Positions 660 through 17,123 of a stretch of 21,092 nucleotides of DNA are shown here, one piece after another (the stretch's first letter is position 1; each line of letters opens with the position of its first letter). A program made the translations under genes and the position numbers. The stretch comes from a virus, in IMG/VR virus record IMGVR_UViG_3300033571_008068, positions 1 through 21,092 of that record; one strand, written 5' to 3'. A model generated the notes under the pieces. It was not told the origin of the DNA. It worked only from the letters and a program-made list of their open reading frames with translations, and did not search any database.

Positions 660-687
660 AATATACATCAAGTCGTGACAGTTTCAA
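660..687 (-). promoter_or_regulatory. Predicted sigma70-type promoter for the 83-610 gene
   Basis: On the - strand the -35 is TTGAAA (682-687, 5 of 6 consensus) and the -10 is TATATT (660-665, 5 of 6), with a 16-base spacer. It overlaps the 3' end of the 668-904 gene. The -35 lies in a tandem TTGAAACTG TTGAAACTG that also encodes a repeated ETV in that protein. The predicted leader before the ATG is about 43 bases. Confidence 0.5.
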
Positions 688-904
688 CAGTTTCAATAGA
701 AATATTTGTAAATGCTTTGATTGCCCAAACTTGAGCCTCAAGAGGTTGATAGGCTGACATCAATCTTGCACGAATCTCACGGTATTCAGGCTTCATAGTG
801 GAATTGTACTTATAGTGCTCATCCAGAGTATGTGCAAGGTAGTCATCAAGAGCATGGCACAGAGCATCCAGTTGGGACAGAGTGACGATTCTATTATTAG
901 ACAT
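668..904 (-). CDS. Hypothetical protein (78 aa)
   Basis: The start at 904 (MSNNRIVTLS) is chosen because GAAAGG lies 7 bases before it; an in-frame ATG at 919 would fall inside that ribosome site. The protein is soluble, probably mostly helical, and moderately acidic, with a central HYKYNSTMKPEYREIRARL stretch and a Thr/Val-rich tail (ISIETVETVTT). I do not recognise a family. It lies directly downstream of the 923-1111 gene, whose stop codon falls inside its leader box, and its 3' end carries the promoter of the next gene. Confidence 0.75.
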   Translation of the reverse strand: MSNNRIVTLSQLDALCHALDDYLAHTLDEHYKYNSTMKPEYREIRARLMSAYQPLEAQVWAIKAFTNISIETVETVTT

Positions 905-911
905 GGTAGTT

Positions 912-925
912 CCTTTCAATAGTCA
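912..925 (-). promoter_or_regulatory. Leader box TGANNNTTGAAAGG, copy 2
   Basis: Reads TGACTATTGAAAGG on the - strand, 7 bases before the ATG at 904. Its first three bases are the TGA stop codon of the upstream 923-1111 gene. There is almost no intergenic space here, which argues against the box being a promoter and for a role in the mRNA. Confidence 0.7.
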
Positions 926-1111
926 AGTTAAGTTGCTGACGTGCATTACGTTAATGTTGCCTGTTTCTGAATCGATAATACGGTAGGACTGTTTACGTCT
1001 TTTACCGAATATGGCGTCTGCAACACTTTGCAGTTGGATGACACTAATACCAGCAAGGATGGCACGCCATGTGCCATCATCTTGCTTAGTCTCGAGGACA
1101 TAGCGTAACAT
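923..1111 (-). CDS. Hypothetical protein (62 aa)
   Basis: A small protein, MLRYVLETKQ onward, with a DGTWRAI segment and a basic GKRRKQSYRI stretch, suggesting a compact beta-alpha-beta domain. I recognise no family. It starts one base after the TAA stop of the 1113-1532 gene and has no clear ribosome site of its own, so coupled translation is likely. Its own stop is inside the leader box of the next gene. Confidence 0.7.
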   Translation of the reverse strand: MLRYVLETKQDDGTWRAILAGISVIQLQSVADAIFGKRRKQSYRIIDSETGNINVMHVSNLT

Positions 1112-1112
1112 A

Positions 1113-1532
1113 TTAGTCTTCGATCAAATCACGTAGGTTTTCGATTGCTTCTTCAGCAGTGGCGCCGTAGGCATGGGTGTCATCACCATCGTGGCCTTTT
1201 TCGTAAGCTATATAAGCCTCGGTAGGTGGGCACAAAGAAGCATACTCATGGCGGTAGGCCTCGTATTCTCTAAACTTTAACAGGCCTTTTTCCCAGGTGC
1301 CTACTTTTTTGGTTGAGGTATCAACAGGTAGAGGAAACTGCACCATGGCTTCACGTGCCGAGTCGTTGGCCGATGAGAAAGCATAATCATTGGTGAAAGT
1401 ATTGAAGCCGCTGAAGTATGTCCACTCACCATCTTTAAGAACTTCGACCACCAAGTCGTAGCGATTTGTAAACGGATCGCCGAGAGACATGATGCGGACA
1501 TTAGATGCTAGGGTTTTGTGTAAGTGTGCCAT
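1113..1532 (-). CDS. Hypothetical protein (139 aa)
   Basis: Starts MAHLHKTLAS with GAAAGG 6 bases upstream. Visible segments are a beta-rich N-terminal half (NRYDLVVEVLKDGEWTYF), an aromatic and acidic middle (KFREYEAYRHEYASL), and a C-terminal AYGATAEEAIENLRDL. That tail resembles the end of HicB-like or DUF1902-like domains, where a short strand is followed by a TxEEAxxNL helix. The resemblance is local, no toxin partner is visible, and I do not assign that function. It is first in a two-gene unit with the 62-aa gene, behind the strong promoter at 1587-1614. Confidence 0.8.
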   Translation of the reverse strand: MAHLHKTLASNVRIMSLGDPFTNRYDLVVEVLKDGEWTYFSGFNTFTNDYAFSSANDSAREAMVQFPLPVDTSTKKVGTWEKGLLKFREYEAYRHEYASLCPPTEAYIAYEKGHDGDDTHAYGATAEEAIENLRDLIED

Positions 1533-4824: not shown

Positions 4825-6906
4825 ATGTCATCCGGTTTCGCCGCACACACCACAACACCTCAGCAATTATACACCAATTTCATAGCAGACAGACAGTTCG
4901 AGGATCAAGATCTTGCCCTTCTCGGCCTAGAATTATTACCTCCAGAAGATACTCACAAGCTTCTTGGCCACACAAAAGAGTGGTCCGTAAAGCTACCTTA
5001 TTACGATCTACAAGGCCAACTCACCGGCTTTAATCGTGTTAGGCTCTTGGCTCCAAAGACCAAGATGAAGTACTCACAGGCTCGAGCTACAGGATCTCAT
5101 ATCTACTTTCCTCCGGGCGCCAATTGGAAAAGTATAGCACAGGAAGTAGATATCCCCATCATTATTACCGAGGGGGAATTCAAAGCCTACCAACTTCTTA
5201 AGAAAGTTACCACTGACACATTACTCTACGCGCCCATCGGCTTAGCCGGTGTGACAAGCTGGACTGACAAGTCAGGTCTTCCTCTCCACAAAGATCTAAT
5301 GCAAATTGCTTGGCACCGCAAAACCAGTTTCGCCGAAAAGCATCGCAAGGTATATATCATCTTCGATTATGATGGCGCAGGAGAAGATGGTGAGCCCAAT
5401 GAGCAAGTCGGCATGGCTGAGACTAAGCTAGCCGTAACACTACGCGGACTTGGCGCTGTGGTACATCTCTGCAGAGTCGGCCGCTTCGGCCAAGGCAAAG
5501 GAAGTAAATACGCCATTGATGACCATATACTTAATGGAGGAGAGCTTGGCTCCGTGCTCACAGCTACCTCGGCCGTGATGAATGGTGTTGACACCATGGA
5601 AACTAAGCTATATGAATTCAAAACTCAATACGCTCTTTTCAATGGTGATGTCATAAGATTAAAAGATGGCCTGATCCTTAACTGGAATAAGGCCAAAATT
5701 GATAGCGCGCAGCACTATTTCACTCAGGTCAATACAAATAGCCGTGGAAATGTTACTAACAAGGACATTCCATTACTTGATGAGTATAAAAAATGGCCAC
5801 GCTGCTGCAAGCTTGAACATATTGGCATGTACCCAGAATATCAGGGCTTGCAAATAACACCAGATAGAAAGTACAATCTCTTTAAAAATTGGGCTTATGA
5901 ACCGATACCTAGCGATCCTAGTCCTTATCTGGATTTTTGTGCATATTTCTTTCAGTCTGAGCCTGCGTTTGTCGACTACTGGCACGACTGGGTCGCCAAC
6001 GTTATCCAATACCCGTGGCGAAGAAACAACACAACCCCACAATTCATCCACGACATGGAGGGGATGGGCAAGTCAGCAATCCCTGAATTTGTTGCAGAGA
6101 TGATGGGCCTTGGTGAGAATGCTCCTGCTGCTACACTTGGCCCCGATGACCTGTTCTCCAGCTTCAATGGTGGCATGAGAGGAAAGATCTTTGTCGTTGT
6201 GAATGAACCATCATCCGATAGAGAAGATCATTCAGCCAAACTAAAGAATCTCATCACAGGTAAAGAAATCACCATCAATAACAAATATGGAGCGCAGTAT
6301 ACTGTTAAGAATTACGTGAACTACGTCTTTACTTCCAACAAGCCCTACATCACTCACATGGGCGCAAGCAGTCGCCGTGAAGCTATCTATAAGTGCCCTA
6401 CCTTCAGCCAACAAGATATCTTAGAACGTGTTAGCAGTATGATGAAGTGGGCAAGAGCTAATAATGGAGCTGGATTCTCAGCTGTCCTTGATTGGTATAT
6501 GAGTCGTGATGTATCGGACTTTGATCCTTACGCACCAGCCCCAATGACCAAGTACAAACAAAAAGCTATTGAGCTCAGCAAGAGTCCACTTGAAGCTTTT
6601 GCCAAAGAACTTACTGACTGGACACGTGAACATTGCAAAGGATCAGCTGCCTTCACCGCTACTCAGCTCTCAATTCTATGCGAACGGTGGGGCTACGATT
6701 CAAAAGCTAAGACGCAATATATTCGTAGAGCTCTCGAATCTCAAGGTGAAGTTGAACCAAGCAAGGTGATCAAAGTACATGGCAAAACTTCTAGGTATAC
6801 AGTTTTTGTGGTTACACCACGGCCGGGAGACGTTGCTGTAACTGCATCTTTGAATGACATTGCGATAATTACCGAAGAAGCAATAAAGAAAGAAATTGAG
6901 CTATAA
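4825..6906 (+). CDS. Phage primase-helicase: TOPRIM-like N-terminal region and SF3/DUF5906-type helicase (693 aa)
   Basis: Start at 4825 follows AAGGAT by 5 bases. Residues about 20-240 resemble the DUF3854/TOPRIM-like region of phage primases: KYSQARATGSHIYFPPG, then IITEGEFKAYQ with Glu116, and YIIFDYDGAG with Asp181 and Asp183. From about 370 a helicase region follows, resembling DUF5906 (SF3, D5/NrS-1-like). It has an atypical Walker A DMEGMGKS (410-417, Lys416), Walker B KIFVVVNE (454-461) and a sensor-like NYVFTSNKPY, with an arginine-rich SSRREAIY after it. The last 120 residues look like a winged-helix DNA-binding end. It probably unwinds and primes phage DNA. No archaeo-eukaryotic primase motif or zinc finger is evident, so true priming is uncertain. 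No DNA polymerase is in the window. Confidence 0.9.
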   Translation: MSSGFAAHTTTPQQLYTNFIADRQFEDQDLALLGLELLPPEDTHKLLGHTKEWSVKLPYYDLQGQLTGFNRVRLLAPKTKMKYSQARATGSHIYFPPGANWKSIAQEVDIPIIITEGEFKAYQLLKKVTTDTLLYAPIGLAGVTSWTDKSGLPLHKDLMQIAWHRKTSFAEKHRKVYIIFDYDGAGEDGEPNEQVGMAETKLAVTLRGLGAVVHLCRVGRFGQGKGSKYAIDDHILNGGELGSVLTATSAVMNGVDTMETKLYEFKTQYALFNGDVIRLKDGLILNWNKAKIDSAQHYFTQVNTNSRGNVTNKDIPLLDEYKKWPRCCKLEHIGMYPEYQGLQITPDRKYNLFKNWAYEPIPSDPSPYLDFCAYFFQSEPAFVDYWHDWVANVIQYPWRRNNTTPQFIHDMEGMGKSAIPEFVAEMMGLGENAPAATLGPDDLFSSFNGGMRGKIFVVVNEPSSDREDHSAKLKNLITGKEITINNKYGAQYTVKNYVNYVFTSNKPYITHMGASSRREAIYKCPTFSQQDILERVSSMMKWARANNGAGFSAVLDWYMSRDVSDFDPYAPAPMTKYKQKAIELSKSPLEAFAKELTDWTREHCKGSAAFTATQLSILCERWGYDSKAKTQYIRRALESQGEVEPSKVIKVHGKTSRYTVFVVTPRPGDVAVTASLNDIAIITEEAIKKEIEL

Positions 6907-6913
6907 AGTACCA

Positions 6914-7074
6914 TTTTTACTGTAACTTGTAACTTTGATGTAACTCCAGATGCGTTGGTACTCCTACTTAGTTACATGGTTACAGTAGTTACAGTAAAAA
7001 TAAAAATTAGGAATATATATTATATATACACATATCTATATAGTTTTCGAGGTAGATGTAACCCGAACTGTAAC
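6914..7074. repeat. TGTAAC repeat cluster with 14-bp inverted repeat; candidate replication origin or packaging site
   Basis: This is most of the 226-base gap between the helicase and terS. TGTAAC occurs at 6921, 6928 and 6939, as its complement GTTACA at 6971, 6979 and 6988, and again as TGTAAC at 7057 and 7069: eight copies in 154 bases. The outer copies belong to a perfect 14-bp inverted repeat, TTTTTACTGTAACT (6914-6927) and AGTTACAGTAAAAA (6987-7000). An AT-rich block (about 6994-7044, runs of TATA) follows. No coding frame is convincing. Repeats beside an AT-rich block fit a replication origin; the position before terS fits a cos/pac recognition site. Confidence 0.65.
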
Positions 7075-7095: not shown

Positions 7096-7129
7096 GTTTA
7101 CAACCATCCAATTTTATGTTTACAATCAT
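7096..7129 (+). repeat. Direct repeat GTTTACAAYCAT upstream of terS
   Basis: GTTTACAACCAT (7096-7107) and GTTTACAATCAT (7118-7129) match at 11 of 12 positions and begin 22 bases apart, about two helical turns. The second copy ends 3 bases before the terS ATG and takes the place where a ribosome site would be. A TATAAG (7091-7096) before the first copy could be a -10, but I see no good -35. Confidence 0.5.
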
Positions 7130-7132
7130 TTC

Positions 7133-7600
7133 ATGACTACGAAAACACCATCAAAGAACGGAAAGTTCTTAGGCCGCCCTAGCAAATACGACCCTGCGTA
7201 TTGCGAGCAAGTCGTTGAGCTTGGCAAGCTGGGTAAGTCACGTTGGGCTATCGCATCAGAGCTTGGCATCACGCCTAGCAATCTCAAAGAATGGGAAGCT
7301 GTTCACGAAGATTTTCAGACCGCCTTGGCAATTGCACGACAAGATTCGTTGGCGTACTGGGAGTCATTAGCCGAGAATCACATGATTGAGACGCCGGGTG
7401 GGCCGAAGATCAACACAGGTCTTTGGTCAAGGAGCATGGCGGCGCGGTTCCCAGAGCAGTATCGTGAAAACTCCAAGATGGAAGTCACAGGCAAAAATGA
7501 TGGGCCGATTGAAGTCGATCACATGCACGACTTTACTGGGCATTTACTAACTGAGCTCTTGGCTGTGCGTCAATCAGATGCTGAGTCCGGAACTGAGTGA
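7133..7600 (+). CDS. terS: Terminase small subunit (155 aa)
   Basis: The product begins with a basic tail (TTKTPSKNGKFLGRPSKYDP) and a helix-turn-helix region of about residues 20-60, where GKSRWAIASELGITPSNLKEW gives the turn. The middle helix is ARQDSLAYWESLAENHM, followed by INTGLWSRSMAARFPEQYREN, a pattern typical of small terminase subunits in this phage type. The protein recognises phage DNA at the packaging site and loads the large subunit. Its position directly before terL, with a 23-base overlap, supports the call. No Shine-Dalgarno is visible before the ATG, which is unusual for this window. Confidence 0.85.
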   Translation: MTTKTPSKNGKFLGRPSKYDPAYCEQVVELGKLGKSRWAIASELGITPSNLKEWEAVHEDFQTALAIARQDSLAYWESLAENHMIETPGGPKINTGLWSRSMAARFPEQYRENSKMEVTGKNDGPIEVDHMHDFTGHLLTELLAVRQSDAESGTE

Positions 7601-16523: not shown

Positions 16524-16711
16524 TGAAGACTCTTTCAGACTTTATTGGCCGCATCAAATCTGAGCAATCAAAAATTACTGTAGTGCTGCAAGCTGGCACG
16601 CCGGTAAATTATGAATCTTATCAGCGTTTGGTCGGCCATTTCCAAGGCTTGGAAGAAGCTTTGTCGATTCTTGATACTCTTTTGGATGAGGAAAAACGAG
16701 ATGTCGAATGA
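16523..16711 (+). CDS. Small hypothetical protein of the head module (62 aa)
   Basis: Starts by TGATG overlap with the previous stop. The product MKTLSDFIGRIKSEQSKI then ESYQRLVGHFQGLEEALSIL forms two helices with the YQRLVG-xxQGL motif. I know this pattern from small proteins between portal and capsid genes in several phages, without an assigned function. It overlaps the co-chaperonin gene by 11 bases. Confidence 0.75.
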   Translation: MKTLSDFIGRIKSEQSKITVVLQAGTPVNYESYQRLVGHFQGLEEALSILDTLLDEEKRDVE

Positions 16712-17123
16712 TATCGCTGAACAAACGCTTGAAGAAGCGTTTCCGTTAGTAGATCCACTTATGCGCCCTTACGGTGCTCGTGTCTTGGTGCAGCTTCGTG
16801 CCGTTAAAGACAAAGTTACCAAATCAGGCATTATGCTGGTGGAAGAAACAAAAGAAACTGAAAAATGGAACACCATGATTGGCAAGATTGTTGCCATAGG
16901 CCCGCTTGCGTTTATGAAGCGTGACACCATGGAACCGTGGCCAGAAGGTGCATGGGCAAAAGTTGGAGATTATGTCCGTGTTCCAAAATGGGGTGGCGAT
17001 CGTTGGGAAATCGACTTTGAGCAAGGCGAGCAAAAAGGTAAAGCACTCTTTACTTTCTTTAACGACCATGAGCTTATTGGCGCCTGTACTGGGGACCCCC
17101 TCGCAATTAGAGCGTTTGTTTAA
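16701..17123 (+). CDS. GroES-like co-chaperonin (140 aa)
   Basis: Start chosen at 16701 (MSNDIAEQ): GAGGA lies 8 bases upstream, and the longer frame from 16611 would add 30 residues inside another gene. Alignment by eye to GroES: GARVLVQLRAV (25-35) fits the first strand, KVTKSGIML (38-46) the mobile loop, where SGIML stands for the GGIVL that contacts GroEL, and GKIVAIGP (61-68) and VGDYVRVPKWG (88-98) the beta-barrel. The end LFTFFNDHELIGA fits the last strand before ALAIVE in GroES. It probably caps host GroEL to fold the capsid protein, like T4 gp31 or RB49 CocO. No GroEL gene is in the window. An insertion near 72-86 is longer than in bacterial GroES. Confidence 0.85.
   Translation: MSNDIAEQTLEEAFPLVDPLMRPYGARVLVQLRAVKDKVTKSGIMLVEETKETEKWNTMIGKIVAIGPLAFMKRDTMEPWPEGAWAKVGDYVRVPKWGGDRWEIDFEQGEQKGKALFTFFNDHELIGACTGDPLAIRAFV

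Follow-up and report, generated by a model that had tools for sequence, protein, structure and literature searches.

The alpha protein of phage P4 carries an origin-binding domain of the winged-helix type at its C-terminus. Replication of P4 requires alpha together with its cognate ori site (PMC6092414). The origins of PICIs always contain two sets of iterons with AT-rich DNA between them, and the authors who described this layout termed it unique to PICIs (PMC6092414). DUF5906 proteins are part of the PICI replication module (PMC6092414, PMC7581432, PMC10111431). In SaPIs, the C-terminal domain of Rep recognises the iteron origin downstream (PMC7581432). The SCCmec helicase Cch2 is a similar case: its C-terminal domain, taken alone, binds short direct repeats that follow the helicase gene (PMC7581432). 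Opposed repeats have been found to load two hexamers head to head (PMC9894130). Outside replication, TcpK, which acts on the oriT of pCW3, uses a winged-helix fold to read tandem boxes, the main contribution coming from its beta-wing in the major groove (PMC6137059).

Repeat cluster and gene context

We analyzed a virus record of 21,092 bases, without end repeats, which we refer to as the window. Most genes left of about 4.5 kb read leftward. The rightward genes are those for a primase-helicase and then for TerS, TerL, the portal, a GroES-like protein and the major head protein. The primase-helicase (4825–6906, plus strand; 693 aa) is our proposed origin-binding initiator. Pfam and PHROG matches assign it an N-terminal DUF3854 region and a DUF5906 SF3-type helicase core; its PHROG label is 'DNA primase', and the core resembles the NrS-1 phage primase 6k9c (E 2.5e-12). 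The gene for the terminase small subunit, terS (7133–7600, plus strand; Pfam and PHROG matches), flanks the other side of the gap. The helicase gene ends at 6906 and terS starts at 7133; these are the flanking genes named in a preliminary description of this DNA. Amid the head genes, positions 16611–17123 encode a GroES-like co-chaperonin (Cpn10).

Searches of known phage records returned no close relative, the best DNA match being the Manatee Spring phage terminase at 67.5%, and the genome collection searched for a host yielded distant relatives only, at 25–36% identity. A satellite would be without a full set of virion genes; the window has TerS, TerL, portal and major head protein. A circular relative of 55.7 kb carries genes for DNA polymerase, helicase, thymidylate synthase and thymidylate kinase. 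The owner of the window is a phage rather than a satellite: it brings its own genes for terminase, portal and head, a relative has a DNA polymerase, and a search of 12 records for an integrase was negative. The repeats are most likely the replication origin of this aquatic bacterial virus.

The gap contains eight copies of TGTAAC within 154 bp, three on the plus strand, three on the minus strand and two again on the plus strand, exactly as first described. They form array 1 (6921–6944, plus; copies at 6921, 6928 and 6939), array 2 (6971–6993, minus; copies at 6971, 6979 and 6988) and array 3 (7057–7074, plus; copies at 7057 and 7069). Two more copies, at 6811 (minus) and 6837 (plus), lie inside the helicase gene and are outside the count of eight. 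The preliminary description had called this density far above chance, and simulation bears it out: the maximum was three TGTAAC per 154 bp in 300 Markov sequences of the whole window and four in 20,000 runs with the gap's own composition, while any 6-mer reached eight copies in 2 of 5,000 runs. Arrays 2 and 3 are separated by an AT-rich stretch of 63 bp (6994–7056), the proposed melting site; the AT-rich block reported after the first six repeats is indeed present, with 87% A+T across 7001–7046. A perfect inverted repeat also exists as described (6913–7001), although its arms, 6913–6927 and 6987–7001, measure 15 bp and not 14 bp. Separate from the repeats, a promoter-like site for terS (TTTACA-18-TACAAT; 7097–7126, plus strand) matches the consensus at 10 of 12 positions. 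A TACAAT-like box recurs at the same place in front of terS in many relatives.

Layout across relatives

Searching IMG/VR with the helicase and TerS, we obtained 156 loci with both genes, representing 100 distinct gap sequences. Nearly all gaps contain array 2, with two or three words that are usually on the minus strand, then 61–73 bp of AT-rich DNA, then array 3, with two or three words on the plus strand. This layout is kept across the 100 distinct helicase–terS gaps, at helicase identities down to 49%. Array 1 is looser: it is present, but its orientation differs by lineage and is reversed in several. The inverted repeat has already lost one arm in a relative with a 96% identical helicase (L010), and given such loss even in close relatives we reject the idea that its 15-bp arms form a functional hairpin. 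Because array 1 varies in orientation and the inverted repeat is lost, comparison of the gaps identifies the AT-rich block with its two flanking arrays, 2 and 3, as the core. The preliminary description had made its interpretation depend on conservation of the repeats in related phages and on where genome ends and the skew switch map; the position of the repeats is kept, and their sequence changes in concert.

A TATA-type stretch followed by AGTTYY, the CTATATAGTTTTC-type element, occurs in 80 of the 100 gaps, a few of these matches lying outside the core. In the window, the conserved element CTATATAGTTTTC lies just 5' of array 3 (7036–7048, plus strand). It is similar in most relatives though the surrounding AT-rich block varies, and the AT-rich DNA often ends TATA...AGTTTTC. 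Gaps of 354–419 bp, with approximately 110–190 extra bases upstream of or within array 1, occur in five loci (L023, L130, L163, L108 and L164). Near-complete relatives have one cluster per genome, coding tandem repeats aside. Two genomes contain tandem 12-base units with TGTAAC far from the origin gap (G015:C1 58864–58971 and G017:C1 19605–19646); these units probably lie inside coding sequence and are not iterons.

The IHF consensus (WATCAANNNNTTR) is found in 38 of 100 gaps, whereas shuffled sequences give about 4. The sites are almost all on the minus strand, and most of them fall between arrays 1 and 2 (L084, L087 and L098 are examples). The consensus is absent from the window, where the relatives' site corresponds to 6945–6970. 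Repeats, an AT-rich core and an IHF-like site in some relatives recall the anatomy of an attP site, in which the words would be arm-type repeats. A search for the tyrosine integrase PF00589 found none in 12 records of 51–75 kb and was positive in 14 of 14 control genomes, and the words follow the helicase, as described below. The missing integrase rules out attP as a working candidate, and we give this reading hardly any credence.

In the window and nearly all relatives, the array lies directly 3' of the helicase gene. The exceptions are rearranged lineages (L224 and L278/L228), in which the array is on the terS side and 2–5 kb from the helicase; closeness to the helicase is thus not general, which counts against the origin reading proposed below. 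In L278, one further gene separates the array from terS (662–1273, minus strand; also L281, 251–841, minus strand); by eye, this gene appears GIY-YIG homing endonuclease-like. In L224, the array sits between divergent late and early genes. The terS-side position in these lineages may reflect a connection of some kind to packaging or to late transcription. Taken further, helicase binding could serve mainly to control late-gene transcription, the terS promoter being 23 bp downstream of array 3, rather than to start replication. The promoter-like site and the placement of the L224 array are compatible with such control, but an AT-rich block between two opposed arrays is how SaPI/PICI origins are laid out, and it would be unusual for transcription to be regulated by a hexameric helicase alone. 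We therefore consider transcriptional control as the main function highly improbable.

Repeat words and their proposed reader

The word found in the 100 gaps is TGTAAC in 39, TGTTAC in 39, TGTAAT in 18 and TGTATC in 4. Most copies within one gap switch together as a rule, which is expected if a single protein reads all copies and its preference shifts. One locus (L161) has TGTAAC in arrays 2 and 3 and still TGTTAC in array 1, with helicase residues that agree with arrays 2 and 3; it is a possible intermediate between words, to judge from its arrays.

Each helicase and TerS column was tested against the word in 97 scored loci. Base 4 follows helicase residue 648, with Leu corresponding to T: the residue is Leu in 37 of 37 TGTTAC loci and in 0 of 39 TGTAAC loci. 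Base 6 follows residue 650: this residue is Lys or Arg in all 79 loci with words ending in C and in none of the 18 with TGTAAT, where Thr, Ser, Asn, Phe, Tyr or Leu is found. In the window, these positions are V648 (codon 6766–6768, plus strand), with 1 mismatch in 97 loci against 6 for the next best column, and K650 (codon 6772–6774, plus strand), with 0 mismatches against 4. The best TerS columns make 13 errors for base 4 and 11 for base 6. When 15-residue windows were compared, the nine top predictors of the word all fell within helicase residues 636–690, and the same wing sequence was never paired with two different words. On a tree built from helicase residues 1–585, which leaves out the wing, the word changed at least 12 times. 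Supported independent pairs on this tree agree in 6 of 6 cases for base 4 with residue 648 (sign test p 0.03) and in 3 of 3 for base 6 with residue 650; statistically, the analysis is limited above all by how few independent events there are, three supported pairs in the case of base 6.

The rule was then applied to loci that had not been used in finding it, taken from further scans together with two from earlier scans that stood outside rule-making (L174 and L224), and it held in every new locus with a clear array and readable residues. Eight of these have the array beside the helicase (L174, L256, L263, L264, L269, L271, L273 and L277, the last with a best helicase match of 51%). The rule also fits where the array is 2–5 kb from the helicase, in L228/L278 (TGTAAC) and in L224, for which the predicted word TGTATC is the one observed. 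The new loci are partly interrelated, representing perhaps five or six lineages, and several are near the training set. Three loci were left unscored, two with degenerate arrays (L280 and L281) and one without the residues (L167). In the L024/L171/L175–L178 lineages the C-terminal domain is very divergent, and the wing alignment is less certain.

Closely related pairs separate the two candidate readers. Two phages with different words, L127 (TGTTAC) and L128 (TGTAAC), have identical TerS proteins, while their helicases differ at 15 positions, 11 of them in residues 590–693. Conversely, L125 and L126 share the same word with one helicase difference and 28 TerS differences, and a single TerS segment, WRNLQNWEGAHDDFRA, accompanies three different words. 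Identical TerS with different words, together with the error counts of its best columns, rules out TerS as the repeat reader, and the covariation points to the helicase instead. In its DNA-binding half TerS is mosaic, and very different versions occur in near-identical phages (L125/L126, window/L011 and L013/L015); this pattern looks as if it arose by exchange through recombination.

These comparisons bear directly on packaging, since the preliminary description had left the gap as either an origin or a cos/pac site. The origin side of that alternative is strengthened by the covariation of word and helicase and by a PICI/SaPI-like layout, and repeats bound by TerS are contradicted by L127/L128. 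A TerS-bound cos or pac site, cut in or near the AT-rich block, would suit the position of terS as the next gene, and also the fact that relocation of the helicase gene leaves the array on the terS side. A few contigs also end within the AT-rich block (L009/L081, L014/L078, L016 and L027). Those ends do not share one base and come mostly from one A-rich subclade, most relatives read through, and two circular contigs (G002 and G003) read through the gap and close within other genes. These observations speak against the AT-rich block as a fixed genome end, though a cos site elsewhere in the gap would be compatible with them. With the pairs above and 13 loci missed by the best TerS column also counting against it, we regard a TerS-bound packaging site as very unlikely. 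An origin read by the helicase could instead share the gap with a packaging start. Closeness to terS is constant, and the 58 bp from array 3 to terS are not accounted for by iterons; against this, the gaps and contig ends compared showed neither a fixed end nor a cut site that is conserved, and the stretch 5' of terS looks like a promoter. Such an overlap is unlikely in our estimation.

The helicase region that tracks the word is predicted to form a C-terminal winged-helix domain (residues 578–693; 6556–6903, plus strand), our proposed repeat reader. AlphaFold2 modeled it with a pLDDT of 89.9 and a pTM of 0.84, in the order H-E-H-H-E-E-H, and places residues 648 and 650 as i and i+2 on the first wing strand, near the wing tip. 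The full-length helicase model, with a mean pLDDT of 68.8, was not used. A Pfam search with this domain gave no family above its cut-off, and a PDB profile search with the C-terminal alignment gave chance-level matches only. The nearest PDB fold, a weak match, is TcpK (5vfx; E 0.1–0.25, TM about 0.4). The nearest viral models, also weak matches, include several end portions of primase-helicases from other phages.

Proposed origin and comparison with known systems

Given the conserved layout, the concerted words, the residue–base covariation, the agreement of new loci, the exclusion of TerS and the predicted fold, we propose, with a probability of roughly 0.83, that the gap is a replication origin whose hexamers are iterons for the C-terminal winged helix of the phage's own primase-helicase, with residue 648 setting base 4 and residue 650 setting base 6. 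From the same evidence we infer direct contact, hexamer loading, melting and the origin activity itself. The winged-helix domain would bind the hexamers, and arrays 2 and 3, being opposed on either side of the AT-rich melting site, could allow two helicase hexamers to assemble head to head. After melting the AT-rich DNA, these hexamers would set both forks going, and array 1 may be an accessory or loading array. The GC skew minimum lies near the gap in the window and G002; its distance from the gap is 1.6–2.3 kb in three genomes and 6.7 kb in G016. Skew is weakly informative here, being confounded with the gene-strand switch.

We further hypothesized a two-residue code, in which wing residues 648 and 650 would contact and set bases 4 and 6, and in which iteron and reader have switched together many times, with whole arrays rewritten, perhaps in escape from satellites or rival phages that use the same origin. 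This fuller scenario is tentative, and we would place it somewhat below even odds. An unexplained patch of repeats becomes a predicted initiator–origin pair with more than 100 natural variants, origin specificity becomes testable with two residues and two bases, and a simple sequence rule is available for locating origins in uncultured phages of this group.

Among described systems, the lambda O origin is alike in that iterons adjoin AT-rich DNA and the initiator is encoded beside the site, but lambda O is not known as a helicase, and the gene that encodes it contains the iterons. TcpK shares the winged-helix fold, in a match that is weak though the best in the PDB; it is a conjugation accessory protein and not a helicase. 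SCCmec Cch2 is likewise a helicase with repeats downstream of its own gene, but it has three 5-nt iterons only and belongs to another helicase subfamily; an opposed pair is not described, and replication was not shown there. P4 alpha also combines primase and helicase in one protein, here as DUF3854 and DUF5906. Its iteron word and layout (ori/crr) differ from those in the window. The P4 origin-binding domain gave no sequence or fold match among our PDB fold or profile hits, and what remains is a general winged-helix likeness of the modeled C-terminal domain.

The closest parallel is the SaPI/PICI Rep–ori system. There too, the origin lies just downstream of the initiator helicase gene (PMC6092414, PMC7581432, PMC10111431), and iteron sets flank an AT-rich region, as arrays 2 and 3 do around 63 bp in the window. 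The helicase C-terminal domain is the reader in SaPI/PICI systems and, as covariation suggests, would be so here. Unlike these islands, the phages described here encode terminase, portal, capsid and DNA polymerase themselves. They also have a third array, whose orientation varies, words and a C-terminal domain without a named family and, in two lineages, an array 2–5 kb from the helicase. By analogy, the window locus would resemble a PICI origin in its working, yet it is not a PICI.
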